From positions 62,001 to 126,000 of the forward strand of contig JACPSZ010000007.1 of the NCBI GenBank assembly GCA_024860875.1: a stretch of DNA of 64,000 bases. The letters run 5' to 3'. A program made the position numbers and the translations under genes. Below are positions 64-47,828 of this stretch, piece after piece. Within the stretch, counting starts at the first letter, position 1; each line of letters begins with the position of its first letter. The notes below the pieces were generated by a model that made no database searches, was not told the origin of the DNA, and worked only from the letters and a program-made list of their open reading frames with translations. Source of the stretch: Nitrososphaerota archaeon (lineage in GTDB: Archaea; Thermoproteota; Nitrososphaeria; Nitrososphaerales; UBA57).

Positions 64-900
64 TTGAAAGACGAGAAATACAAATTTCTCATTGACAATC
101 AAGAGAAGATCGAGGAGCTAGCAACTAGATTTGGATCTTATGTCACGAGGGTAGACAAGAATAACATCAATCGTTTCCTAACACAGTTCGAGATCGAACA
201 TTTGCAGGTTGCATTGAAATTATTGGACAATGTTGATTATTATGATGGCACAAGGCGATTAAGTCTTCTAAAAGATTTGTGTGGCATGGTGCTTGCTGTG
301 TCAAACACTTCTTTAGAAAATGTTGTATTTTGTCCCTTAAACCCCTTCTCTGCTGACAGCTCCGATCAAATTCATAGAATATTCCGTAATGTCATGAAGG
401 GCAGGGCTAAGAACTGTAGAAATTATAATAAAAAATTTATTCATATGAATGACTTGGAAGATCTCAATGGCAAACCGTATACGGTATTCTTTGTAGATGA
501 CTTCATAGGCTCAGGGCAGAGCGTGATCGAACATTGGGGTACAATTCAACATTACGAAGACAGAGATAATCACACCTATTATTTTGCGGTCATGGTTGCT
601 TATAAGGAAGCGATAGATGAGATACGGAAACAGACATTCGAGCATTTTGAAATTATTACATCCAGAGAGCTAACCAACAGGAATAGAGCATTCCACAAAA
701 AGAGCAAGATATTTACAGATAAAGAAAAGGAAATTCTGAAAGAATACTGCAAAAGGATCTCAAGTAGCGATAAGCATAGGTACGGCCATAATAACACACA
801 ATCCCTAGTTGTTTTTCAGGATCGCGCTCCAAACAACGTCATACCTATTCTGAAACAAAACACGAATAATTGGTACCCATTATTTCCAAGATTTTACTAG
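64..900 (+). CDS. Phosphoribosyltransferase-like protein (PRTase-CE type)
   Basis: Predicted cytosolic protein of 278 residues with a TTG start. The central stretch VFFVDDFIGSGQSV has the form of the PRPP-binding loop of type I phosphoribosyltransferases (hydrophobic strand, two acidic residues, small-residue loop). The C-terminus carries the pattern APNN followed by W-PLFPR, which I associate with the PRTase-CE family described from nucleotide-centred conflict systems. The substrate is unknown. It lies tail to tail with a DNA methyltransferase, and an upstream open frame ends just before it, so it may belong to a defence or stress operon cut by the window edge. The family call is from motif memory; the conflict role is inferred. 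Confidence 0.6.
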   Translation: MKDEKYKFLIDNQEKIEELATRFGSYVTRVDKNNINRFLTQFEIEHLQVALKLLDNVDYYDGTRRLSLLKDLCGMVLAVSNTSLENVVFCPLNPFSADSSDQIHRIFRNVMKGRAKNCRNYNKKFIHMNDLEDLNGKPYTVFFVDDFIGSGQSVIEHWGTIQHYEDRDNHTYYFAVMVAYKEAIDEIRKQTFEHFEIITSRELTNRNRAFHKKSKIFTDKEKEILKEYCKRISSSDKHRYGHNNTQSLVVFQDRAPNNVIPILKQNTNNWYPLFPRFY

Positions 901-929
901 AGTATAGGTTCAACCATATAGCGAATTAA

Positions 930-2213
930 TTAGTCCTTCTCGAAGAAGAGTACTCTCTCGTCGTTGATCGTATTATAGAGTCCAAAAATCTTCTTTGGCA
1001 GATCTTCCTTTAATGTAAACCCTATTCGTTCACAATACTCAATCGCGTTGTGCACATTTCTAGTATGTTCTCCATCGACTGTGGCTTCTCCAATCACCGC
1101 GACGCAGTAAGATCCGTGTCTCAGGACACGATACAACTCGTCGTAACACCTTCTCATGTCCTCATCGTAAAGATCTACCTTTTGTCTGCCCTTCCCTTTA
1201 ACTCCGATGCACTGTTCACCGAGCTCCGCAAGGTCTATGCCTAATTCTTCGAGAGCGTACCTGTCGTTATACACGTAGTTTAGAGCGATAGAATATGGTG
1301 GAGATGTTATTACTGCGTCAACACTATCGTCTCTAATTAGGTCCTTCAAGTTGCGGGCATCTCCCTCATGGATGGAGACCTCTCCTAAGGGCCTATCTGT
1401 TTTCAACTCCTTCTGAGTCTTTGCAAGATCTAGGGCCGATGCAATCATCGTTTGAATATTTTTCTCAAAGGATGCGAAGTCTCGTCTTCTCCTACCTAAA
1501 TCACTGGCAAAAATCAGTTGTGCCAATACAAAAAAGTCTTTCACTTTATCGTCCTTCAATGAGTCAAGGAATTGCTGGTAGGACGACCCATCTTTTTCAG
1601 AGTTGAAGGCTTCGGCCTTTCTAGTTGGTTCTATTTTTGTATACTCTGAAAAATCCTTTTTCATCGCGTCAACTGCTTTCTCCCTTAGGAGTGGTAATTT
1701 TTGTGCTATTTGGCCGGCGGTGACTTTGACTCTAGCAATAATCTGACATACCGGCGAAATGTCCACACCGATGGCGTTAAGTCCAAATAGGTGAGCTTCA
1801 AGCGAAGTCGTACCACTACCTACAAATGGATCAAGAACTGTCTGACCGTATTCCAAGCCAAGTATGTTGAATATTGACCTGACCAGTCTGGGATGATATT
1901 TGCCTTTGTATGGGTAATACCAGTGTGTTAGGAATTGGTTGTCAGATCTCTTCTGGTTACGCGAGACAATTCTTGAGTATTCAGTGATACGGTCACCCAC
2001 CTTTCCGAAATGAGCCAGTCTTTTTGCAAGCAAGTCAATGTCATAGGGCGGTCTAATTTCAAACTCGATAGTATCGTTCAGTTTGGTGTCTGCGTTTACC
2101 TTCAACCCATCCAACTCACGACGAGCAAATGCTACCTCATAAACAAACTGGGTCTTATTATCTAGTTGAGCCAAAATGACATTCTGCGATTGCGCCTTGC
2201 TATTAGATAGCAC
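930..2213 (-). CDS. DNA methyltransferase (N4-cytosine/N6-adenine amino-MTase type)
   Basis: S-adenosylmethionine-dependent DNA methylase of 427 residues. The SAM-binding motif DPFVGSGTT lies near residues 128-136 and the catalytic motif TSPPY near 303-307. Motif I therefore precedes motif IV, with about 165 residues between them that could hold the target-recognition region. TSPPY is typical of enzymes methylating exocyclic amino groups, most often N4 of cytosine. The start is GTG. No restriction endonuclease is recognisable beside it; the neighbour across the convergent junction is the phosphoribosyltransferase-like protein. It could be an orphan methylase or the modification arm of a system that continues beyond the left edge. 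Its recognition sequence cannot be read from the protein. Confidence 0.8.
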   Translation of the reverse strand: MLSNSKAQSQNVILAQLDNKTQFVYEVAFARRELDGLKVNADTKLNDTIEFEIRPPYDIDLLAKRLAHFGKVGDRITEYSRIVSRNQKRSDNQFLTHWYYPYKGKYHPRLVRSIFNILGLEYGQTVLDPFVGSGTTSLEAHLFGLNAIGVDISPVCQIIARVKVTAGQIAQKLPLLREKAVDAMKKDFSEYTKIEPTRKAEAFNSEKDGSSYQQFLDSLKDDKVKDFFVLAQLIFASDLGRRRRDFASFEKNIQTMIASALDLAKTQKELKTDRPLGEVSIHEGDARNLKDLIRDDSVDAVITSPPYSIALNYVYNDRYALEELGIDLAELGEQCIGVKGKGRQKVDLYDEDMRRCYDELYRVLRHGSYCVAVIGEATVDGEHTRNVHNAIEYCERIGFTLKEDLPKKIFGLYNTINDERVLFFEKD

Positions 2214-2352
2214 TTAACATCACGATATATTGTCTGAATATAAGCAATATGTTTGTACTTTTCGGTTGAAAAACAGATAACATGACTGGTACGACTGATG
2301 GCGAAGATATTGATTAATCGAAAATAGGGTCTTTTCTGTTGAACTTCCAAGG

Positions 2353-4122
2353 CTAAACCCAGCGCCTTTCCTGAGGCACTTCTCTTTTCTCGAACTTCAT
2401 AGGGTCTTCCCATTTCTTGCCCAACCATTTCCCAAAGAACTCCTTCTGCTGTTTTGTAGGGTTCTTTATTTTCTCAAATGCAAACTGCAGACCTGACTGT
2501 TCCCCGACTTTAACATCCAAAGGGATTACCCTCTCGTCCCTGCTGACGATTATTGCGATTGTTGAATTGGGCTTTGTTTCAGCAAGCCTTTCCTGAAGGT
2601 TTTTTTCGTTGATACGGAAACTGTTAAAGGAGATTATTTCGTCGTTTGCATAAATTCCCGCTTTCTGCGCCGGGCCATTTTGCATTACACTTGCAATGTA
2701 TGCTTTGCTTTCTTGGCTCCTAAGCTTTACGCCAAGGAAACCGCCCTCACTTGTGGAAGGCCTTACCGAGAGGCCTGCATAATCGAACCATTTGTTATAG
2801 TCAATATCCTTCAAACCTCTGACATAATCTGCAAAGAAACCCTCCAGACTTCCGCATATCTTCTCGCATGCCTCCTGAAAATCTTCGAAACCAAAGCCTT
2901 TGTTTTGCTTGTAAGTTTCCCTGTAGAGCAGTCGCATAACATTGTCAAGAGATTTTCTATGGTTTGTCCTTCTTTTTATCTCCATGTCCAGCATCAAGCC
3001 AACTACGGCTCCTTTTGCATAGTACGAAACAGAAGAATTCGGAGTATTCTCGTCCTGCCTGTAGTGCTTAATCCAAGCGTCATAGCTCGCTTCTTCAAGG
3101 CTCTGCACACTTTTACCCGGCATCCCTTCGACGAACTCTATGTCATCAAGCAAAGCATCTAAGAATTCCTCTGCAGAGTATATTCCCGCTCTCTTAAGTA
3201 TCTCGTTTTCATAATAACTCGTTATGCCCTCTGAAACCCAGAGCAAGTTTGTGTAATTTTCTTTCTCATAATCATACCGCATCAGTTGTTTCGGCCTTAG
3301 CCTTTTCACATTCCAAAGATGGAATAATTCATGTGCAATCACTGAAAGCTGCCGCAAGTAATCAACCCTTGACTTGAAGCTCCACCTCTGCAACCTTATC
3401 ATGCTCGAATTGCGATGCTCTAATCCTCCACCCCTCTCCGACAGCAGATGCATTATGAAGACATACTTTTCATAAGGATGCTCTCCGAAAACTGTTCCAG
3501 CAGCTTCGACGATCTTCTTTATGTCTGCAATGAAACTCCTTGTGTCGAGGTTTCCCGAACCATAGATTGAAACTTCGTATAGCTTTCTATTTACTGTAAA
3601 ACTGTAAACCTGCTGGTTTCCAATTTCAATGGGGGAATCTACAAGATGGTCGTAGTTCTCTGCAAAGAACACATTGTTCCTTCTTTCAAGACCAGTTGAG
3701 ATTCTCTTGAACTTTCTATACGGCCTGATTTCCAGTTCCACATTTTCATCTTTCCTGCCTTGGACATAGCAGAATACGCCTGCTCCATTTACCGTTGCCC
3801 TTTCTTCGTCGAGATAGCTCGTCTGAACACCCATCTCAAAGGCATAGACTTCGTAGGTAATCCTGCAGCTCCTTTCCCCTTTGGTTTTAACTTCCCAGAC
3901 ATTTTTCGCAATTTTCGATACAAAAAGGGGTTTCCTATCTCTGCCAAATGCTCTGAAGTTCTGGACATTTCTTGAAAACTCTCTAACCAGATAAGAGCCC
4001 GGAGCCCAAACGGGCATGACAACCTTAATCGGACTGTTTTTCAGATTATCTGCAAAGATTTCGATGTCGAAATAATGTGCTGAAGGATTATTCATAGAAA
4101 GAGTATAGCGAATGTTTCCCAA
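2353..4122 (-). CDS. M61 family glycyl aminopeptidase-like metalloprotease with PDZ domain
   Basis: Zinc metallopeptidase of about 589 residues. The N-terminal beta-rich domain opens with IRYTLSM and is followed by the catalytic domain with HELFH at about residues 264-268 and a downstream acidic ligand in WVSEGITSYY. A C-terminal PDZ domain begins near GGFLGVKL. I chose the TTG start because GGAG sits five bases upstream and the family N-terminus begins there; the frame stays open 70 codons further but that part has no family character. Family members have glycyl/alanyl aminopeptidase activity. No signal peptide is visible with this start, so a cytosolic location is likely. It is transcribed in the same direction as the methyltransferase after a 139-base gap. 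Confidence 0.85.
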   Translation of the reverse strand: MGNIRYTLSMNNPSAHYFDIEIFADNLKNSPIKVVMPVWAPGSYLVREFSRNVQNFRAFGRDRKPLFVSKIAKNVWEVKTKGERSCRITYEVYAFEMGVQTSYLDEERATVNGAGVFCYVQGRKDENVELEIRPYRKFKRISTGLERRNNVFFAENYDHLVDSPIEIGNQQVYSFTVNRKLYEVSIYGSGNLDTRSFIADIKKIVEAAGTVFGEHPYEKYVFIMHLLSERGGGLEHRNSSMIRLQRWSFKSRVDYLRQLSVIAHELFHLWNVKRLRPKQLMRYDYEKENYTNLLWVSEGITSYYENEILKRAGIYSAEEFLDALLDDIEFVEGMPGKSVQSLEEASYDAWIKHYRQDENTPNSSVSYYAKGAVVGLMLDMEIKRRTNHRKSLDNVMRLLYRETYKQNKGFGFEDFQEACEKICGSLEGFFADYVRGLKDIDYNKWFDYAGLSVRPSTSEGGFLGVKLRSQESKAYIASVMQNGPAQKAGIYANDEIISFNSFRINEKNLQERLAETKPNSTIAIIVSRDERVIPLDVKVGEQSGLQFAFEKIKNPTKQQKEFFGKWLGKKWEDPMKFEKREVPQERRWV

Positions 4123-4360
4123 GAATGCTCCGCCATTGCAAAACCATGTAGCGTAAAAAGCCTTACCGATGTCATCATTAGGTTGTTCAAGACTATAAGA
4201 TAATTGTGGAGTATTGGACTCAGCAATGAGTGTATTAGACGTGTCCTTGCCATGCACCTTCCTGCAAGGAAGAGGATACTCGAAACAGTGTCCAAGTTTC
4301 CGGGCTTGCATTTTAGGGAAGTGCAGAGGCACTCTTTAGATGCGAACTAGATTCACGATT

Positions 4361-5296
4361 TCAGCCCTTCTGAGTGAGCTGCAGTAAAGGGCTTAGTAAC
4401 AGACTGCATACAGAGCATATATCGCCTGAACACGGGAAGCCGCAGTTCAAGCACGGCTTGGCATCGCGAGAAGTTTCAATCTTTAGATTCTTTGCGATAT
4501 TCATCATAGACCTGAACATATTGTACTTCATCCCTGGATGTGCATCTTCAAAGCGGTTCAGGATGACCCTTATGTCTGACCTTATGCTTTCGGACATGTG
4601 TGGACACGACACAGTTTGGAACGGAATATCATTGAGAAAAGCATAGTATGCTATTTCTTCTTCATAAACCTCCATCAGCGGCTTTATTCTCTTTAACCCA
4701 AAAATCCGCTTGGGCTCGCTGGCAGGGTCAAGCCACTTTATCCTTTCAACATCTCCGCTGAGCAGGTTTATCATGAAGGTTTGGAGTGCATCATCAAGGT
4801 TATGGGCAGTTGCAACAACGTTAGCGGCTACCTTCTTTGCTCCCATGTCCAGAGCCCTCCTCCGCAAAATCCCGCAAATAGTACACGCAGCAACCTTCTT
4901 CCCATTTCTCCTCTCCAAGCTTTCATCAAGTTTGAGGCCGTAAAGCTCTTTGTACGAAAGAACTAGTTGCTGAACGCCAAGTTTAGAAGCAAATTCTTTG
5001 GCATTGCCTACAGCCTCTTCCCTGTAACCATCTATTCCCTCATCGACGGTAATAGCATATACTTTAGTGCCATACGGCTCAGAGATTTTTGAGAGTATGT
5101 GCAAAAGCGAGAGGCTGTCCTTGCCTCCAGAAACGCCAAGAGCAATCTTGTCTCCATACTTCAACATCTTATATTGGGAGATTGTCTTTCTGGTCTTTTC
5201 TACAATGGAGTCTGAAAAGCAGGACTTGCAGAGCACTTCTCCAGAGTACTTGCGCTTGTATACCGCTTTCCTCCGGCACTTGCTGCACTGGTTCAC
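4361..5296 (-). CDS. ttuA: tRNA 2-thiolation enzyme, TtuA/Ncs6 family
   Basis: Predicted cytosolic PP-loop ATPase of 311 residues that thiolates a tRNA uridine. The N-terminus holds a CxxC zinc finger (CSKC and CKSC). Next is the ATP-pyrophosphatase loop SGGKDS, then the CTICG cysteine pair used with a C-terminal-region cysteine (VSCPH) for an Fe-S cluster or persulfide. A second zinc finger (CLNC, CSVC) closes the protein. Homologues either make 2-thiouridine at wobble position 34 (Ncs6/NcsA) or 5-methyl-2-thiouridine at position 54 (TtuA); sequence alone does not separate these. The GTG start leaves almost no leader, and the gene diverges from the MarC-type gene across 52 bases. Confidence 0.88.
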   Translation of the reverse strand: MNQCSKCRRKAVYKRKYSGEVLCKSCFSDSIVEKTRKTISQYKMLKYGDKIALGVSGGKDSLSLLHILSKISEPYGTKVYAITVDEGIDGYREEAVGNAKEFASKLGVQQLVLSYKELYGLKLDESLERRNGKKVAACTICGILRRRALDMGAKKVAANVVATAHNLDDALQTFMINLLSGDVERIKWLDPASEPKRIFGLKRIKPLMEVYEEEIAYYAFLNDIPFQTVSCPHMSESIRSDIRVILNRFEDAHPGMKYNMFRSMMNIAKNLKIETSRDAKPCLNCGFPCSGDICSVCSLLLSPLLQLTQKG

Positions 5297-5348
5297 GTAC
5301 CTTAAAAATGCAGGGTCTTGCTAAATATGTTGTGGAAGGGAGCGGGGA

Positions 5349-5951
5349 ATGATCGAAGGGTTTAGCATAGATGCACTTCTGCTTGGGCAGTCCATTATCA
5401 CGCTCTTTGCAATCTTTGATCCCATAGGCGCCATACCGATATTTTCTGCTCTGACTCAAAATATGTCAGTAGGGGAAAGAAGGGATATAATCAACAAGTC
5501 GTGTCTTGTATCAGCAGGGATACTTCTTACGTTTGCTTTAGCTGGAAACTTGCTCTTCAGTGCCTTGGCAATTGCATTAACGGACTTCAAGATAGTTGGA
5601 GGGATAATACTGCTGATATTTTCTATCGAATACGTATTGGGAAGGAGTGAAAAGCAATATCAAAAGATGGCACAGGAGGATATAGCTGTCTTCCCTCTAG
5701 CAACGCCACTTCTCGCTGGGCCAGGAAGCATCAGCGTAGTCTTGTTGATGGAGGATATGGTGCTAAAATTGGTCGTCATCGTTGTTGTAGTCGCAATAGC
5801 TTGGCTGGCTCTGTACGTGGGAACTGGCGTGCTTAAAGTGATGGGAAGGCACGGCTCATCCGTCGTGTCAAGAATAATGGGTCTGATAATTGGAGCCATT
5901 GCGGTTAGGTTTATCAGAGAGGGCCTAGAAGAAGTTCAGCGTCCCCGGTGA
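5349..5951 (+). CDS. MarC family integral membrane protein
   Basis: Membrane protein of 200 residues with about six hydrophobic helices. It shows the family pattern FAIFDPIGAIPIF near the N-terminus and the repeat-like LATPLLAGPGSIS in the second half. MarC-family proteins are widespread; despite the name, a role in antibiotic resistance is not established and the transported substrate is unknown. The ATG start is well placed and the gene shares four bases with the next one (GTGA overlap), so the two are almost certainly co-transcribed. That pairs a membrane protein of unknown function with a membrane-tethered transcription regulator. Confidence 0.88.
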   Translation: MIEGFSIDALLLGQSIITLFAIFDPIGAIPIFSALTQNMSVGERRDIINKSCLVSAGILLTFALAGNLLFSALAIALTDFKIVGGIILLIFSIEYVLGRSEKQYQKMAQEDIAVFPLATPLLAGPGSISVVLLMEDMVLKLVVIVVVVAIAWLALYVGTGVLKVMGRHGSSVVSRIMGLIIGAIAVRFIREGLEEVQRPR

Positions 5952-6823
5952 ACACTCTGCGCAAGTTTGTGTTTGTTCTATTATTGTTGCTGAGTCTGAG
6001 CCCTACATCCGCTCAGCTTGCAGACTACGAGTCTGCAAAACACGATATTATTGTCTACAGGGATGGTATAGTACTAGTTGTGCAGCAGTTCAAGATCAAC
6101 CAGTCCATTGCACAGATTAACGTGCCTCTGCTTTCTCCCTCTGCCAGCTCCACATTTGCAACAGATCAGTCAAAGGCTCCTATGGCTTTTGACCTTGCTG
6201 GCAGAAACATTACAGTTCACACACTTGGGGCGACTGTAGCCACAGTCGAATATCAGGTTGCGGACATAACCAGCAAGGAAGGTGCTGTATGGACGTTGAA
6301 GATAAACCTCCTGACTAAAGCAAACCTCACTCTGCCAGAGCAAGCTACGATAACGTTTCTTAACGCTATTCCCGAAACCATATCACTCGGTGGCGGCAAG
6401 CCAGTCCTCCTTCTAGGGCCAGGCTCTTGGGAAATCAGTTACACGTTGCCAGTAACAGTGCAGCTACAACCTGATCCACAAGCACAGCCTCAGCCCGCCC
6501 CAAGTCCTCAGACAGGCGTCAATCTTTCAACACTATGGATTCCTGCAGTGGGCGTCGCAGCTGCAGTAGGAGCATTTCTTTTTTACAGAATGAGGAGGTT
6601 TCCGCAAATAGACACAGATGTGAAATTAAGGCCAGAAGAGGAAGCGTTGCTTAACTTCTTGGCGGAGAGCGGAAAGAAAGCACTTGAATCGGACTTGAGG
6701 AAGAAGTTCGTCATACCAAAAACGAGCATGTGGCGCATGTCAAAAAGGCTCGAAAGGTTAGGCTACGTTAAAATCAACAGGTATGGCTCTCAAAATGAAT
6801 TGGAACTTCTGAAAAAGCCCTGA
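5948..6823 (+). CDS. Membrane-tethered winged-helix transcription regulator (COG2512-like)
   Basis: Protein of 291 residues. A signal peptide (hydrophobic stretch followed by SAQ) is followed by an extracytoplasmic beta-rich region to about residue 185 and a proline/glutamine linker. One transmembrane helix lies around 196-214, then a short basic RMRRF stop-transfer sequence. The cytoplasmic C-terminal winged helix has the recognition region KTSMWRMSKRLERLGYV. The expected topology is outside N-terminus and inside DNA-binding domain, suggesting a one-component sensor of envelope state. Its GTG start overlaps the MarC stop codon. It abuts the stop codon of a site-2-type protease gene on the other strand with no bases between, which makes proteolytic release an attractive but unproven idea. 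Confidence 0.82.
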   Translation: MNTLRKFVFVLLLLLSLSPTSAQLADYESAKHDIIVYRDGIVLVVQQFKINQSIAQINVPLLSPSASSTFATDQSKAPMAFDLAGRNITVHTLGATVATVEYQVADITSKEGAVWTLKINLLTKANLTLPEQATITFLNAIPETISLGGGKPVLLLGPGSWEISYTLPVTVQLQPDPQAQPQPAPSPQTGVNLSTLWIPAVGVAAAVGAFLFYRMRRFPQIDTDVKLRPEEEALLNFLAESGKKALESDLRKKFVIPKTSMWRMSKRLERLGYVKINRYGSQNELELLKKP

Positions 6824-8041
6824 TTATATAGTGATGAAGCCCGACCTGATGAACGTTCCAACAATATTTGCAATCAATAATCCGAGTGCAAGAGTACTGA
6901 TGAATGTTCTAACAAACTTTCTCCTGTTTTCAGGTACCTTTGCGCTGATTAGCGCATTCAGGAACCCATCTCCATCAAGAGGGTAGAATGGCAACATGTT
7001 GAATATCGCAATGTTAAACGATAGGAAGAAGAGCCAGAACAGGAACGCTGCAACTTCTCTAGGCATCTGAAAGCCTAGCGAGATTCTAGGAGGATAGTAC
7101 GGCTGGCTTAGATTTACCCCCAAGGCTCCTCTTGAAGCGTTTGTAGGGGAGGGCCCTGTCACAAGAGGGAACGCAAGCAGCTGCCCGTTCCTGAACACTT
7201 TAACTTCTATGCTTTCCCCTATTGCTAGTGAAAACTTGCGGAAATCTGCCAGAGTTTTTATTTCGACTCCGTTCACGCTAGTAATGATGTCATTCGGTTT
7301 GAGACCTGCTTTTTCTGCTCCCCCGTTAGGCAATAAATCGACGATGGGAACTCCCATAGAATCGCCATAGAATAACGGCTTTGTAGTGTTGAGAACCGGC
7401 AGGGCGTCTAGGACAAAGGCAAAGGTTGGCGTAGTTACAAGCAACGCTGCAACTAATATAGCACAGGCGATGTTTGCACCCGAACCTGCACCGACCACTC
7501 GAAGTCTCGAAATCGGCTTGGCCTTGGTAAATTCTTCTTCGTCAGGCTCAACGAAGCCTGCGAACAAAGCGGCTATAATTGCAAAGCCTCCAGACTTCAC
7601 CTTGATCTTTTCAAGCTTGGCTATTACGCCGTGCCCTCCCTCATGCACTACCAGTATTATAGGTAATGAGAGGAAAAAGTATAGCAGAACTTCTGTATTC
7701 CTTATTGTGATAAATGGGACAAGTACAGTAATTTCAGAGAAACTTTGCTGGGCGAAGAAGAAACTGTAAAGGTTAGAAGCGAGGAAGCCAAAAGCTGCAA
7801 CCATAAAGATCAATCCCAGAATTACGCTAATGTTTGCAAATAACTTCCAAAGCTTTTCTGCCTTGGCTATCCGTCCAAGTATTCCATCAATTCTCTGGCT
7901 TTTGTACACTAGGTAGAACGGCTTAATGCTGAAGCCTTTCTGGTCAAGCTTGGCAACTTTGCCTATCGCGTAAACAACAGCCCAAAAGGCAACAAATGCA
8001 AGCGCTATCGTCAGAGTGTCTAATGTAGCCGCCATCTGCAT
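6824..8041 (-). CDS. M50 (site-2-type) intramembrane metalloprotease with PDZ domain
   Basis: Polytopic membrane zinc protease of 405 residues. The active-site helix carries HEGGH. The second metal-ligand motif appears as MLPFYPLDGDGFLN near the C-terminus (consensus NxxPxxPLDGG, here with a D in place of a G). Between them sits a PDZ domain with GGAEKAGLKPNDIITSVNG. Family members cleave membrane-spanning segments of regulators or signal-peptide remnants. A TTATAA box lies about 24 bases before the ATG, consistent with a leaderless transcript. The adjoining tethered winged-helix protein is a candidate substrate by position only. Confidence 0.88.
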   Translation of the reverse strand: MQMAATLDTLTIALAFVAFWAVVYAIGKVAKLDQKGFSIKPFYLVYKSQRIDGILGRIAKAEKLWKLFANISVILGLIFMVAAFGFLASNLYSFFFAQQSFSEITVLVPFITIRNTEVLLYFFLSLPIILVVHEGGHGVIAKLEKIKVKSGGFAIIAALFAGFVEPDEEEFTKAKPISRLRVVGAGSGANIACAILVAALLVTTPTFAFVLDALPVLNTTKPLFYGDSMGVPIVDLLPNGGAEKAGLKPNDIITSVNGVEIKTLADFRKFSLAIGESIEVKVFRNGQLLAFPLVTGPSPTNASRGALGVNLSQPYYPPRISLGFQMPREVAAFLFWLFFLSFNIAIFNMLPFYPLDGDGFLNALISAKVPENRRKFVRTFISTLALGLLIANIVGTFIRSGFITI

Positions 8042-8079
8042 CGCTTTTAATATGGCATGATTATAACAGTTCTGTAGCC

Positions 8080-8391
8080 GTGGTAGCTAAAATAATCCTT
8101 TCAACATATCCCAGCATGGAAGAGGCCAAGGAGGCTGCAAAAGGTGCTGTCTCCGGGAGGCTTGCAGCGTGTGTAAACATCGTTCAAATTGCGTCGATAT
8201 ACACTTGGAAGGGCAAGATCGAAGAGGCTGAAGAGTTTCTTGCTATTTACAAGACTACTAATGCAAAGGCTGCAAACCTAAGAAAGTTTATCGAAAGCAG
8301 ACATTCCTATGAAGTTCCTGAAATTATCACTTTGGACGCTAACGGCGTATCCAAGAAGTACATGGATTGGCTGGTAGAAGGCACAAAATAG
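8080..8391 (+). CDS. cutA: CutA1 divalent-cation tolerance protein
   Basis: Small trimeric cytosolic protein of 103 residues, full length for the family. Recognisable elements are LSTYPSMEEAK near the start, GRLAACVNI, the YTWKGKIEEAEE region and the terminal EVPEIITL. CutA was named for copper tolerance in bacteria, but its biochemical role in archaea is unclear; it may bind metals or act as a structural PII-like trimer. The start is GTG and the gene diverges from the M50 protease across 38 bases. Confidence 0.9.
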   Translation: MVAKIILSTYPSMEEAKEAAKGAVSGRLAACVNIVQIASIYTWKGKIEEAEEFLAIYKTTNAKAANLRKFIESRHSYEVPEIITLDANGVSKKYMDWLVEGTK

Positions 8392-8517
8392 TGCAATCGC
8401 ATTGCACCTCACTGAACCATAAAGGGACAAACACCAGCATAGGAAGCTGTCATGGGCTAGAGAGAAGAAGCTGGATAGAGCCCATCAAGCAAACATCAAT
8501 TAGATCAGTATCAGAAG

Positions 8518-9177
8518 CTAATCAATAATCATGGGGTCAAAAATCTGATTTATGGCGACTACAAACTTATTACTAGTGGGCGAATTTTTTTCTAACTCTG
8601 CCAAATAGCCGTTTTTGTCCAGTTTGACTGAATCAATGATTTCATCCTTGAACTTCGATATAGAGACAACAAATTCTCCGTCAACTTTAATGATGACTCT
8701 ACCAAAGATATCAGCTGAGAGCTCCTCTTCTCCAACTTCTCTTATCTGCAGGTGATGCTTGCCATCAATATCTTCTTCGTCATGTCGCCAACCTATGATC
8801 TTGTTGTCATAAAGGAAGACCGCTTTCGGCTCCGATAGGTGAACTAATTTGTGTCTGAATATCTTTTGGAGCAGGGAAATTTGCCAGTCTTCATATTTCC
8901 TTCCGCTTGTCGACATAAATTTTTGCATATAAATCCGAGTATTTTCCACAGTACTACCACGTCTGGCATGCCCTCCATAGAGAGATCCAAGCAAGTCTAG
9001 AACCGAAAAGCAGTAAAGTATTGCTGGAAATGGAGCTAATTGTTCTTTTTTATGATTTTTAGTCAGGCAGCGTTTTACATCATTATCAAGCGAGTTAAGC
9101 CTGTTTTCGACTAGATACTCCTTCGCAAATCTGATTAGATCAGAAACGTCTTTGAATGTTATCGGTAGGCTTCCCAT
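8518..9177 (-). CDS. Hypothetical protein with a HEPN-like motif
   Basis: Protein of 219 residues that I do not recognise. The N-terminal half is helical and contains CFSVLDLLGSLYGGH followed later by IFRHKLVHLSEP. The latter has the R-x4-H spacing typical of HEPN ribonuclease and toxin domains. The C-terminal half is beta-rich with charged repeats. It lies between cutA and pelA without close spacing to either. A HEPN relationship is suggested only by the motif and its helical setting; no partner nucleotidyltransferase or antitoxin is adjacent. Confidence 0.6.
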   Translation of the reverse strand: MGSLPITFKDVSDLIRFAKEYLVENRLNSLDNDVKRCLTKNHKKEQLAPFPAILYCFSVLDLLGSLYGGHARRGSTVENTRIYMQKFMSTSGRKYEDWQISLLQKIFRHKLVHLSEPKAVFLYDNKIIGWRHDEEDIDGKHHLQIREVGEEELSADIFGRVIIKVDGEFVVSISKFKDEIIDSVKLDKNGYLAELEKNSPTSNKFVVAINQIFDPMIID

Positions 9178-9287
9178 AATGCTTGCTGTGGTCAGAGGCA
9201 GATATGAATCTTCATCCCTAATTTTTGCAACAGAGATGCCATTAGCAAGGCATCCAGAACTAATGCAACAGAACCCGTGACAATACG

Positions 9288-10352
9288 CTATCCTTTATAC
9301 ATAGAATATCTCAGCAATCCTAAAACGCCACCCATAACATCGACCTGATTTCCTGTATCGGTAGAAGAGTCTACAAGGTAAGTCTTGCCTCCGAACTTCT
9401 CCGTTGCATTTAGCAGCTCTACTATGCTGCTTTCGTCGCCCTTTTCGAATAACTTGCTCGAAACCAATACAGATTCAACTGCACCAGCTTTTGCAGCTTC
9501 AAGAGTTTCCCTCAATGAAACAACCACTCTGCCATCGTTCCTTGCAATTCTCTTTACAGCTTCTTCTGCAATAGCCTGAACTCTCACTATAGTGGCATCT
9601 GCAAAAACCCTTTTCAATGATGGAGATTTTAGAGCAACAAAAAGTCCGTCTTCTCCCGAAAGGTCTATCCCTTCAACTATTTGTACCAAAGAGGCAAGCT
9701 TGCTGTCTTTTGAAAGGAAGTTTGCAAACGCATTCTTTGTCTGGCCAGGGCCGAATACAATTATCTTGTTTCCTTCTTTGTGCACTGCTTGGAGAGCATC
9801 CTTGATCTTTGCCATGTATTGAGCCAGCGAGCCCTGCGAGCTTTCGTACATCTTTCCCGAAATTCCCGATTCTATCTGAGGCAGAATCTTCAGATGAGTT
9901 CCGGATAACGCCCCAACGGCTGCATCGCGGGTATCTATTGCAACAAGCAAGAACCTTTCGCTCGATTTTGATGACTCGTGTAGGAGTTTAGCTTCGAAAT
10001 CTTGCCACGTTCTTTTCTTGATGACCAGAGGGAAGCCTATGGAAACGTTCATCGAATGGTGCGAGCCCTTGCTGAGAAACTCTTCCGACACTTCAAGTAT
10101 AGTGCCAGAAATCCTGAGCCTTTCAAGCATGCCTTCAAGCTTTACTGAATCAACCTCCAAGCTAAGCCTTACGCTTATCCTCTGGCCCTTGTCTGGCCTG
10201 GTAAATTCTCCCTGCGCCTTTATCACTCTGGTAGTTTCCCCAGAAATCTCGTCCCCTGAAGCTATTATCCTCCTTAACGTCCATAGGTCTTGAAGGTCTT
10301 CGGGCTGCACTACTGCGAGCCCTATGTTCCTCTGAAACCTGCTGATAATCAT
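9288..10352 (-). CDS. pelA: Pelota (Dom34), ribosome rescue factor
   Basis: Cytosolic eRF1-related protein of 354 residues, normal length. The N-terminal Sm-like domain contains LWTLRRIIASGDEI, typical of pelota. The central domain lacks the GGQ peptide-release motif of eRF1. The C-terminal domain ends with a GGKTYLVDSST region of the eL30-like fold. Pelota works with the translational GTPase aEF1A or ABCE1 to dissociate stalled ribosomes. It lies six bases downstream of dnaG and is probably co-transcribed with it, linking an RNA-surveillance factor with the exosome-associated DnaG. Confidence 0.93.
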   Translation of the reverse strand: MIISRFQRNIGLAVVQPEDLQDLWTLRRIIASGDEISGETTRVIKAQGEFTRPDKGQRISVRLSLEVDSVKLEGMLERLRISGTILEVSEEFLSKGSHHSMNVSIGFPLVIKKRTWQDFEAKLLHESSKSSERFLLVAIDTRDAAVGALSGTHLKILPQIESGISGKMYESSQGSLAQYMAKIKDALQAVHKEGNKIIVFGPGQTKNAFANFLSKDSKLASLVQIVEGIDLSGEDGLFVALKSPSLKRVFADATIVRVQAIAEEAVKRIARNDGRVVVSLRETLEAAKAGAVESVLVSSKLFEKGDESSIVELLNATEKFGGKTYLVDSSTDTGNQVDVMGGVLGLLRYSMYKG

Positions 10353-43994: not shown

Positions 43995-44021
43995 TAATTA
44001 TAACTATTGTTATATTGTAAA

Positions 44022-45428
44022 ATGGCCACCAAGACAGAAGTAGCACCAATAGACTACAGCAGGTACAACTTTCACGACTCTACTGAATCATATGCAACGA
44101 AGTTCCCAAAGGGCCTATCGGAAGATATCGTAAGAAGAATTTCCAAACAGAAGGGCGAGCCTGAATGGATGACGGAGTTTAGAGTTAGATCATATAGGCA
44201 TTTTGTAAGCAGACCGATGCCTACTTGGGGTGCCGACCTTTCCCAGATAAAATTTGACGATATTTACTATTACCTTAAACCCACTGACAACGAGAGCCAG
44301 AGCTGGGACGACGTTCCTGAAAATATCAAGAAGACCTTTGACAGGCTTGGCATACCTGAGGCGGAGAGAAAGTTCCTTGCAGGCGTTGGAGCTCAATACG
44401 ATTCAGAAGTTGTCTATCATAAAATACAGAAGGAGCTCGAGCAGCAGGGCGTTGTATTCCTCGGCATGGATCAGGGCCTAAAGGAATACCCTGAGATCGT
44501 AAAGAAGCACTTTGGTACTGTAATACCTCCAGAGGACAACAAGTTTGCAGCTCTAAATAGTGCTGTTTGGAGCGGAGGCAGTTTTGTCTACGTGCCCAGA
44601 GGTGTGAGAGTGAACCTTCCATTGCAGGCGTATTTCAGGATCAATGCGGAGAACATGGGACAGTTCGAGAGAACTCTCATCATTGCAGAGCCAGACTCAT
44701 ACGTTCATTATATTGAAGGCTGCACTGCACCAGTATATACGAAAGATTCGTTACACTCTGCTGTCGTTGAACTGATTGCAGATAAAGGAGCCCACATCAG
44801 ATACACTACAATACAGAACTGGTCAACTGATGTCTACAACCTTGTCACGAAGAGGGCTCATGCGTACGAAAATGCAACTGTAGAGTGGATTGACGGCAAT
44901 ATAGGAAGCAAGATTACTCAAAAGTATCCTTCGGTATACCTTTTAGGCCAAGGTGCGAAGGCGGAGATTCTTTCCGTTGCGTATGCTGGAAGGGGGATGC
45001 ATCAGGACGCTGGAGGGAAGATTATACATCTAGCCCCGAATACTTCATCGAGGATAACTTCAAAGTCTATCTCAAGGGATGGAGGGAGAACGACTTACAG
45101 AGGGCTGATTTATGTTGCAAAGGGCGCTACTGGCGTAAAGTCGAAGGTTGTCTGCGATGCTCTTCTGCTTGACGACAAGTCTAGGACCGACACTTATCCA
45201 TACAACGAGATTCTCGAGGAGGATGCGACGACAAGCCACGAAGCTAGCGTTGGGAAGATCAGCGATGATCAGGTCTTCTACCTTATGTCAAGGGGTTTGA
45301 GCGAGGCTGAAGCTATACGCACAGTTGTAATGGGCTTCATGGAGCCCTTCACGAAGGAGCTCCCAATGGAATATGCCGTGGAGCTGAATAGATTAATGCA
45401 GCTCGAGATGACTGGTGCGGTAGGCTAG
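44022..45428 (+). CDS. sufB: Fe-S cluster assembly protein SufB
   Basis: Scaffold component of the SUF system, 468 residues from the ATG (MATKTEVAP). Conserved segments include RNFHDS-type N-terminus, [31 protein letters not shown] and the C-terminal [17 protein letters not shown]. SufB binds SufC and SufD and carries the nascent cluster. The upstream TTG would add five residues but sits inside the predicted initiator region. No sufC is beside it: the upstream neighbour is tfe. The ATPase must be encoded elsewhere. Confidence 0.94.
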
Positions 45429-45471: not shown

Positions 45472-47127
45472 ATGAAACTTGCAGAAATTACTGAAGAGCT
45501 GGCAATCAGCTCTGGCTTCAAGTCCGAGCCAGAGTGGCTCAGAGAGTTTAGGGCTCAGGCCTTTAAAGAGTTCAGCAGCCTCCCTGTAGAGCGATCTGGT
45601 CTCTATGCAAAATATGCAGACCTGCTAACCGCTGTCGACTTTTCTGGCTTAAAGTCAAAAACTGAGCGTGAGGCTCCGGCAGAAGCAGTTTTAGATGCAA
45701 GCGTCTCAGCCAAAATAGTTCAGAACGATTCTGGCGCCATCCGAATCGCACCGTCAAAAGAATTAGTTGAGAGAAATGTCATACTATTACCAATAGAAGA
45801 AGCGTTTGCAAAACACGATTCTTTGCTAAAAGATTATGCCGCGGGAATAATCCCTCCTCTAGGCAAGGACAAACTTGCATACCTGAATAGAGCAATATTC
45901 AACGGCGGCTTCTTCCTTCATGTTCCAAAGAACGTCTCAATAGAGAAGCCTATCAGGCAAGTATTCACATCAGATTCAGACAGGTTCTCGCTCTTTTCCC
46001 GCTCCATAGTAGTTCTCGAAGAAAGTGCAAGTATTTCGATACTTGCAGAAGACTATACGCATTCTGATGCTGACGAACCATCAATTTACAGCAGCCTTGT
46101 AGAAGTCTACCTCAAGGACAATGCAAATCTTGCCTTTTCTAACATTCAGGCGCATGCGAGCAACGTAGTCAGCCTTGCCAATCGTCAGGTTAGATGTGGA
46201 AGGGATAGCAGGGTAAAGTGGGCAGGAGGCTACACGGGAGGGAGCATAACGAGGAGCAGAACAGAAACTCTGCTGGAAGGGAGAGGCTCATTCGCACGGG
46301 ATTACGAATTTGTGTATGGAGATGGCAACAGCAGGTCTGACATAACTACGGACATGATTCATATTGGAGAAAGCACTGACGGTGAAACAGAGTCAAGAGG
46401 AGTCCTGAGGGATAAAGCCCGCTCTACTCTCAAAGGCGTTATAAAGATAGAAAATGTTGCCCGCAATGCACACTCATTCGTCGGAAACCATGCAATTCTG
46501 CTGAGCAAGGAAGCGAGAGCCGATACGGTACCCGCATTGGAAATAGTTACCAATGAGGTCACAGCAAAACATTCTGCTTCTGTTGCACAGTTGGACGAAA
46601 ACCAGATTTTCTATTTAATGACAAGGGGCCTGACACTAAAAGAAGCTGTCTGGGTGATAATCACTGGCTTCCTCGACCCTGTGACATCGCAGATACCACT
46701 AGAAGACACAAAAGAGGCTTTCATGAAGCTTATTGCAGAACGCTACCAAAAGGCTAGAGAGGTTTCTGCTCCCTTAGTAACTATAATTCCACAAGAAAGT
46801 AGAGGGAGACTGTTCCAGCTCGGCCGAATTGCGGACTTTGCAGATGATGCAACGAAGGGTATTGAGGTTGAAGGCAAGAAGATTCTGATTTCAAAAATCG
46901 GAGGTAAGTTCCACGCTGTTGGGGGAATATGCTCGCATGAATATGCAGAACTCGATAGGGGTTTTTTCAAAGACGATGTAGTGACTTGCCCGCTACACCT
47001 TTCGCAGTTCGATCTGAAGAGCGGAGTTGCACTAAACCCTCCTGCTGTGGATGCTCTGCCAGTGTACAAGGTTCATACGCTTGATCAAAAGATATACGTA
47101 GAATTGGAGTCCAGCGGCTATACTTAA
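45472..47127 (+). CDS. sufD: SufD fused to a Rieske [2Fe-2S] domain
   Basis: 551 residues. The first ~430 match SufD (SEPEWLREFRAQAF, FNGGFFLHVPKNVSIEKPI, ENQIFYLMTRGLTLKEA). A short linker follows, then from about residue 445 a complete Rieske domain with C487-x-H489 and C506-x2-H509 (SHEYAELDRG, CPLHLSQFD). The frame is continuous and the linker is natural, so this is a true fusion. SufD supports iron entry or cluster formation in the SufBC2D complex; a bound Rieske centre could supply electrons or sense redox state. It lies 43 bases after sufB. Confidence 0.92.
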   Translation: MKLAEITEELAISSGFKSEPEWLREFRAQAFKEFSSLPVERSGLYAKYADLLTAVDFSGLKSKTEREAPAEAVLDASVSAKIVQNDSGAIRIAPSKELVERNVILLPIEEAFAKHDSLLKDYAAGIIPPLGKDKLAYLNRAIFNGGFFLHVPKNVSIEKPIRQVFTSDSDRFSLFSRSIVVLEESASISILAEDYTHSDADEPSIYSSLVEVYLKDNANLAFSNIQAHASNVVSLANRQVRCGRDSRVKWAGGYTGGSITRSRTETLLEGRGSFARDYEFVYGDGNSRSDITTDMIHIGESTDGETESRGVLRDKARSTLKGVIKIENVARNAHSFVGNHAILLSKEARADTVPALEIVTNEVTAKHSASVAQLDENQIFYLMTRGLTLKEAVWVIITGFLDPVTSQIPLEDTKEAFMKLIAERYQKAREVSAPLVTIIPQESRGRLFQLGRIADFADDATKGIEVEGKKILISKIGGKFHAVGGICSHEYAELDRGFFKDDVVTCPLHLSQFDLKSGVALNPPAVDALPVYKVHTLDQKIYVELESSGYT

Positions 47128-47289: not shown

Positions 47290-47828
47290 ATTCAAATTTC
47301 AAAAAAAGTGGCAATTGTCCTCTAAAAAAGTTCTCTGGCAAGTTGACGGTTTACGATCTATTCAGCACGGCGGAGTCTATGGCCCGATTGCAAAATGGTA
47401 CAGAAACAATGTCGCTCTAACCATCAGATTATTCTGCTCAGAAGCCTTCGTTTACGAAGGGATAGTTGATCTCACCAAACAGCTCGGAATAGGGATAGAC
47501 GCCATAAAGTACTTTAACATAAAGGGTAGGGTCATCATAAGAACAGAGGACAAGGAGTACGAGTTCCCGCTAAAAGATTTCAGGAAGTATGCAAGGCCAG
47601 CATGCGAATTCTGCAAGGACTATTCTGCAGAGCTTGCTGATGTTGGACTCGGAGGGATAGGGCTGGAGAATGACCGTAACACGAACTGCCGCCGATCAGA
47701 AATTCGTTGACGATGCAATCAAAGACGGATACCTTGAAACTCGCACCCTAGTAGATGCCCAAGATTCGCTAGAATTATTGAAAAAACTCTGCAGAAAGAA
47801 GAAGCAGAAACTTCCGCTTCTCAAATAA
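47290..47828 (+). pseudogene. Decayed F420 hydrogenase/dehydrogenase beta-subunit (FrhB-like)
   Basis: Three pieces in different frames together resemble the C-terminal part of FrhB/FdhB proteins. A first piece ends KKVAIVL before a stop. The main piece (from a TTG at 47315) carries QVDGLRSIQHGGVYG, LFCSEAFVYEG and the cysteine pair ACEFCKDYSAELADVGLGG. It then goes out of frame near residue 115. The continuation TVTRTAADQKFVDDAIKDG sits in another frame from an ATG at 47670. The N-terminal domain is missing. A working member would need about 280-400 residues. Two small genes with recoding cannot be excluded. Confidence 0.6.

Follow-up and report, generated by a model that had tools for sequence, protein, structure and literature searches.

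A sufD-Rieske gene fusion in Nitrososphaerales and a candidate electron donor to the SufBC2D scaffold

Two genes that are neighbours in many lineages, sufD of the SUF iron-sulfur cluster assembly system and a small gene for a Rieske ferredoxin, have merged into one reading frame in a Nitrososphaerota archaeon. The merger of genes that already stood side by side argues strongly that their products work together, and the conserved sufD-Rieske gene pair is a larger and more valuable lead than the fusion itself. With somewhat better than even confidence, we read the Rieske half as a [2Fe-2S] domain that is tethered to the SufBC2D scaffold and supplies it with electrons.

The fused protein

The window, by which we mean the whole 64,000-nucleotide stretch of contig JACPSZ010000007.1 that was analysed, carries the fusion gene at positions 45472-47127 (+ strand), as an uninterrupted 551-aa open reading frame with an ATG start. 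The initial annotation had described a complete Rieske domain joined in frame to SufD, and this holds down to the individual ligands, which are exactly C487/H489 and C506/H509. An AlphaFold2 model of the single chain, built on a 37-row alignment, is confident in both domains (mean pLDDT 90.4) and falls below 50 only in residues 430-443 and the last three.

The SufD half takes up residues 1-427. Its SUFBD core domain (aa 166-400; 45967..46671, + strand) matches Pfam PF01458 at 2.9e-62 and forms a beta-helix in the model, for which Foldseek returns 5awf and 1vh4; SufBD_N is found as well (Pfam, 3.9e-08), and the N-terminal part of the model matches the SufB/SufD structures 5awf, 2zu0 and 1vh4. 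The protein passes the NCBIfam sufD model TIGR01981 (224.3 bits, cut-off 222). Its raw sufB score exceeds its sufD score, yet lies below the sufB model's own cut-off. Alignment to E. coli SufD places His367 (46570..46572, + strand) at H360 of the cluster assembly site, a position occupied by histidine in 40/40 rows compared, and places alanine at the position of C358, as in nearly all archaeal SufDs compared. Fold, His360 equivalent and a sufB neighbour are common to the fusion and E. coli SufD (1vh4, 5awf), whereas the alanine, the extra C-terminal Rieske domain and a locus without sufC set the fusion apart.

The neighbouring sufB (44007..45428, + strand; 473 aa when read from TTG) scores 705.7 bits against the NCBIfam sufB model. 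Its true start is probably the ATG at 44022, as in a genome of the same genus (G406), whose copy begins at residue 6 of the window's SufB. Only 43 bp separate sufB from the fusion gene, and the two are probably co-transcribed. In a residue alignment with E. coli SufB, the counterparts of C254, C405 and E434 are all retained; together with the conserved SufD histidine, this makes both scaffold halves look functional. The SufD-less SMS system, made of SmsB and SmsC only, does not describe this locus: sufB and sufD are separate genes, and the SmsB model scores far below its cut-off.

A linker of 14 residues (aa 430-443; 46759..46800, + strand), modelled at pLDDT below 50, leads to the Rieske half and, by comparison of tails, occupies the place of the C-terminal FExHYKYR tail of unfused archaeal SufD. 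The Rieske [2Fe-2S] domain proper (aa 450-532; 46819..47067, + strand; Pfam PF00355, 6.3e-15) is of the dioxygenase-ferredoxin type, and Pfam, the model and Foldseek all place its CxH...CxxH ligands in a Rieske fold. The first ligand box, C487-S-H489 (46930..46938, + strand), is invariant in two alignments, and the second, C506-P-L-H509 (46987..46998, + strand), belongs to a motif, C[PA]LHLSxF, that is common to suf-linked Rieske ferredoxins. The closest structure is the naphthalene dioxygenase Rieske ferredoxin 2qpz (TM 0.94 of target, rmsd 0.9; Foldseek). Fold (TM up to 0.94) and ligand geometry are as in the dioxygenase ferredoxins NdoA (2qpz) and BphF (1fqt), from which the domain differs in being only about 25% identical, joined to SufD and without an oxygenase partner nearby. 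Its best family-library matches are likewise named dioxygenase ferredoxins, all of them below the NCBIfam equivalog cut-offs.

The sequence of residues 446-551 has neither a membrane anchor nor the bc1-type disulfide cysteines beside the ligands, so the domain does not classify with the bc1/b6f Rieske proteins. The second ligand box reads CPLHLSQF, with the serine present and phenylalanine at the position where high-potential Rieske proteins have tyrosine. As with Rieske proteins in general, phenylalanine for tyrosine and the missing disulfide cysteines suggest a potential lower than that of the bc1 Rieske. Two bc-type Rieske proteins that closely resemble each other, both with a proline-rich N-terminus, are encoded on different contigs of the source genome (L003 on G000 C8, L004 on G000 C7); each has a CPCHGS second box and an N-terminal hydrophobic segment.

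The gene pair in other lineages and the history of the fusion

Where other families of the Nitrososphaerales were inspected, and likewise in Bathyarchaeota-type genomes, sufD is directly followed by a separate gene of about 100 codons for a Rieske protein of this kind. The extent of this arrangement was assessed by scanning named genome contigs with the Rieske alignment alone, without SufD information; the pattern included part of the ligand motif and did not include sufD adjacency. The best 80 of 321 matches gave 79 loci, and in 68 of these a standalone Rieske gene lies directly after sufD, within about 150 nt, often with sufS and sufU next in line. Among the same 79 loci, four are fused, all of the fused protein family and one probably mis-binned, and seven are neither fused nor adjacent within the available sequence or by the criterion used. 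The loci from these best 80 matches span Nitrososphaerota, Bathyarchaeota, Marsarchaeota, Thermoplasmatota, Aenigmatarchaeota and Euryarchaeota, as well as Chloroflexota. Outside these groups, actinobacterial suf operons probably have a Rieske gene too. Within Nitrososphaerales, 79/91 genomes match the Rieske model at E <= 1e-12, and among the matches listed the Rieske gene adjoins sufD in 21 of the 22 genomes with coordinates for both, the exception being G326.

The fusion belongs to the same set. It shares with the standalone genes of the sufB-sufD-Rieske-sufS-sufU arrangement the domain, the motif C[TS]H..C[PA]LHLSxF and the place directly after sufD, and so arose as a merger of two genes that were already neighbours. 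The differences are that the standalone Rieske is a separate gene and that the archaeal SufD next to it usually carries the HYKYR tail, which the fused proteins lack. A literature search, with most subscription journals outside its scope, returned no report of the suf-Rieske pair or of a SufD fusion and only one of a related kind: in some genomes SufT is fused to an N-terminal Rieske ferredoxin domain (S7 architecture, PMC4982691). There, too, a Rieske ferredoxin is joined to an Fe-S assembly factor, but the partner is the DUF59 protein SufT rather than a scaffold, and the Rieske domain is N-terminal (PMC4982691). The SufT fusion thus provides an independent link between Rieske proteins and Fe-S assembly (PMC4982691).

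The initial annotation had been wary of an assembly error and of ligand loss in the relatives. Both were checked, and relatives speak to each. The same 551-aa fusion is present in G406 at 79% identity, and further copies in G398, G399, G401 and G403, of the same family, extend it to several genera; the four Rieske ligands are kept in all fused copies and intact in all relatives seen. The family is a non-ammonia-oxidising one of the Nitrososphaerales that includes heterotrophic marine Thaumarchaea, and a MAG published from that marine group as 'ATL' (PMC7300363) is one of its fused members (G401, locus L136). That an assembly or binning artefact joined two genes can be dismissed for practical purposes: most of the genomes involved are draft MAGs and one fused contig is probably mis-binned, but the congeneric copy in G406 refutes it and the join is common to independent genomes of several genera, MAG ATL included (PMC7300363). 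In the comparison of the window with G406, the Rieske part has a dN of 0.125 and a dS of 1.37, with the SufD part much alike, and the low dN relative to dS shows that the Rieske part is under purifying selection.

The suspect contig had pointed to a second fused family (G409, f70; KW1-S08_208), which we reject. The contig (C62; L092/L178) is 3456 bp long and probably mis-binned, since its protein has 465 residues (of about 550) identical to the fusion of the first family, f1, in G399, and since an unfused sufB-sufD-Rieske that belongs to G409 itself lies on C131 (L184). Long open frames in G003, G338, G315 and G221 were also considered as hidden fusions and discarded; in these the Rieske gene is separate or the frame extends only upstream. 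A search of the plasmid collection gave no sufD-Rieske fusion.

How did the fusion come about? In the scan (best 80 of 321 matches), the tail (D/E)(I/L)FExHYKYR ends 47 of 52 unfused archaeal SufDs and none of the 16 from Chloroflexota; examples among L087-L164 are the sufD genes at L087:5546-6970, L100:5562-6983 and L124:5559-6980, and L079 and L083 have it also. All members of the fused family with a visible C-terminus lack the tail, including two unfused marine members, G405 (L070 5282-6910) and G402 (L071 2448-4070), in which the one-time linker now contains stop codons and a fresh start has appeared, so that sufD and Rieske are separate genes. These two lie inside the fused clade in the SufD tree and are apparent cases of gene fission after fusion. 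The SufD tree recovers the fused family as one clade with weak support (71/94); the Rieske tree splits it, though a single clade is not rejected by an AU test (p 0.234). In the simplest history, one fusion would have removed the SufD tail and the stop codon, and one fission would have followed in a marine lineage. Two independent fusions of sufD and Rieske are possible, but a single origin is favoured, if not proven, at the root of one Nitrososphaerales family or close to it.

The tail itself is possibly a docking peptide. A role in docking the Rieske protein is not established, as the tail occurs whether or not a Rieske gene is adjacent: in L079 and L083 sufD has the tail and no Rieske neighbour, and in Chloroflexota the Rieske gene is present and the tail absent.

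A proposed role in electron donation

Electrons are required to make a cluster out of Fe(II) and persulfide sulfur. They come from Fdx in the ISC system, and NifU's own permanent [2Fe-2S] domain has been proposed as their source in NIF, but for SufBC2D, which copurifies with FADH2 in E. coli, a 2021 review gives the donor as unknown (PMC8593673). To this acknowledged open question (PMC8593673), the suf-linked Rieske protein is a specific and testable candidate answer.

Could the Rieske domain be that donor? Its closest solved structures are soluble dioxygenase ferredoxins, which are dedicated electron donors, and many lineages encode a ferredoxin next to the scaffold, while one has it tethered there, in a system whose donor is the missing piece; both points favour the role. 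The initial annotation had suggested that a Rieske centre docks on the scaffold as electron donor, sensor or built-in acceptor. Sequence alone cannot separate the three, but donation is the most economical reading, and from it we infer a mechanism. What has to be given up is the notion of a newly recruited domain, which elsewhere is a standalone suf-operon gene.

In the proposed mechanism, the SufD half, SufB and the SufC encoded elsewhere would presumably form the usual SufBC2D scaffold, with the Rieske half, most likely a low-to-medium-potential [2Fe-2S] centre, held on the flexible linker. It would give single electrons to the scaffold, where they would reduce SufU/SufS-derived persulfide sulfur from S0 to S2-, or might instead assist in coupling or reducing the cluster as it forms at the interface of SufB and SufD. 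By analogy, the Rieske domain would be the counterpart of Fdx in ISC, or of NifU's permanent [2Fe-2S] domain. The likeness is one of function only, a redox [2Fe-2S] unit fused to or encoded with a scaffold (PMC8593673), and not of homology, with plant/adrenodoxin-type set against Rieske [2Fe-2S] centres and IscU-type against SufBD scaffolds; Pfam finds neither the IscU-like scaffold domain nor the central [2Fe-2S] domain of NifU in the fusion protein. The E. coli suf operon, like many SUF systems, has no Rieske gene, so the Rieske protein cannot be universally required. The SUF system must also make the Rieske centre, so that a donor role calls for some bootstrapping, just as Fdx does. A further point against the role is that no ferredoxin reductase partner was recognised beside the fusion gene.

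More tentatively, and at a little under even confidence, the suf-linked Rieske proteins of Archaea and Chloroflexota may be dedicated SufBC2D donors, one of which is here wired covalently into SufD to give a self-contained redox-active scaffold with the HYKYR tail dispensed with. The fused protein is an unusually convenient construct, since donor and scaffold are locked one to one.

A different assignment, which we hold to be unlikely, is that of a cluster carrier or first acceptor: SufBC2D would load the [2Fe-2S] cluster onto the Rieske domain, to be passed on as by SufA/ErpA or by mitoNEET-type His-ligated proteins. The genetic and physical linkage of the Rieske protein to the scaffold fits this assignment, as does the fact that histidine ligation can make clusters labile, as in CDGSH proteins. 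However, 2Cys-2His Rieske centres generally grip their cluster tightly, the nearest structural relatives of this one are stable electron-transfer ferredoxins, and a tether to the scaffold would hinder delivery to clients.

We give little credence to a sensor of redox state, oxygen or iron that gates the activity or stability of the scaffold. The cluster is the machine's own product, and a fusion could couple the cluster state of such a test domain to assembly. Against this, Pfam recognises no sensor architecture or DNA-binding domain, and the separate ferredoxin gene of most lineages is easier to square with a diffusible carrier than with a sensor subunit. Still less credible is a ferredoxin of general or oxygenase use that shares only a transcript with suf and whose fusion is neutral. 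The dioxygenase ferredoxin names on the best family-library matches, and the several non-suf Rieske genes in the same genomes, would agree with it, but both Archaea and Chloroflexota retain the adjacency to suf, the fusion has persisted with low dN/dS and throughout the family's depth, and no oxygenase gene is recognised beside it.

The surroundings of the fusion and the location of sufC

Downstream of the fusion, a 131-aa reading frame (47315-47710, + strand) matches the C-terminus of the F420 hydrogenase/dehydrogenase beta subunit. No counterpart is recognised downstream of the G406 fusion, and the frame is possibly a remnant.

The absence of sufC from the sufB/sufD-Rieske locus, to which the initial annotation drew attention, is real, but it is not unusual. 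In G338 sufC-B-D-Rieske-S-U stand all together, and in G406 sufC lies on the same contig as sufBD, about 237 kb away. In ammonia oxidisers the distance between sufC and sufBD is 18 kb (G003), 21 kb (G013) or 1.4 Mb (G390), and in G283 sufC is on another contig; since sufC is detached in these relatives too, its absence here is ordinary. The only strong sufC of the source genome is on contig C3, in the order sufC-sufS-sufU, and a sufC-sufS(-sufU) arrangement recurs in members of the fused family where visible. On C3 these genes (10368-12801 of L065, G000:C3:15000-33768) are followed directly, and in line, by a nuo-type complex I operon (274-10345 of the same locus), whose product is a large consumer of Fe-S clusters.
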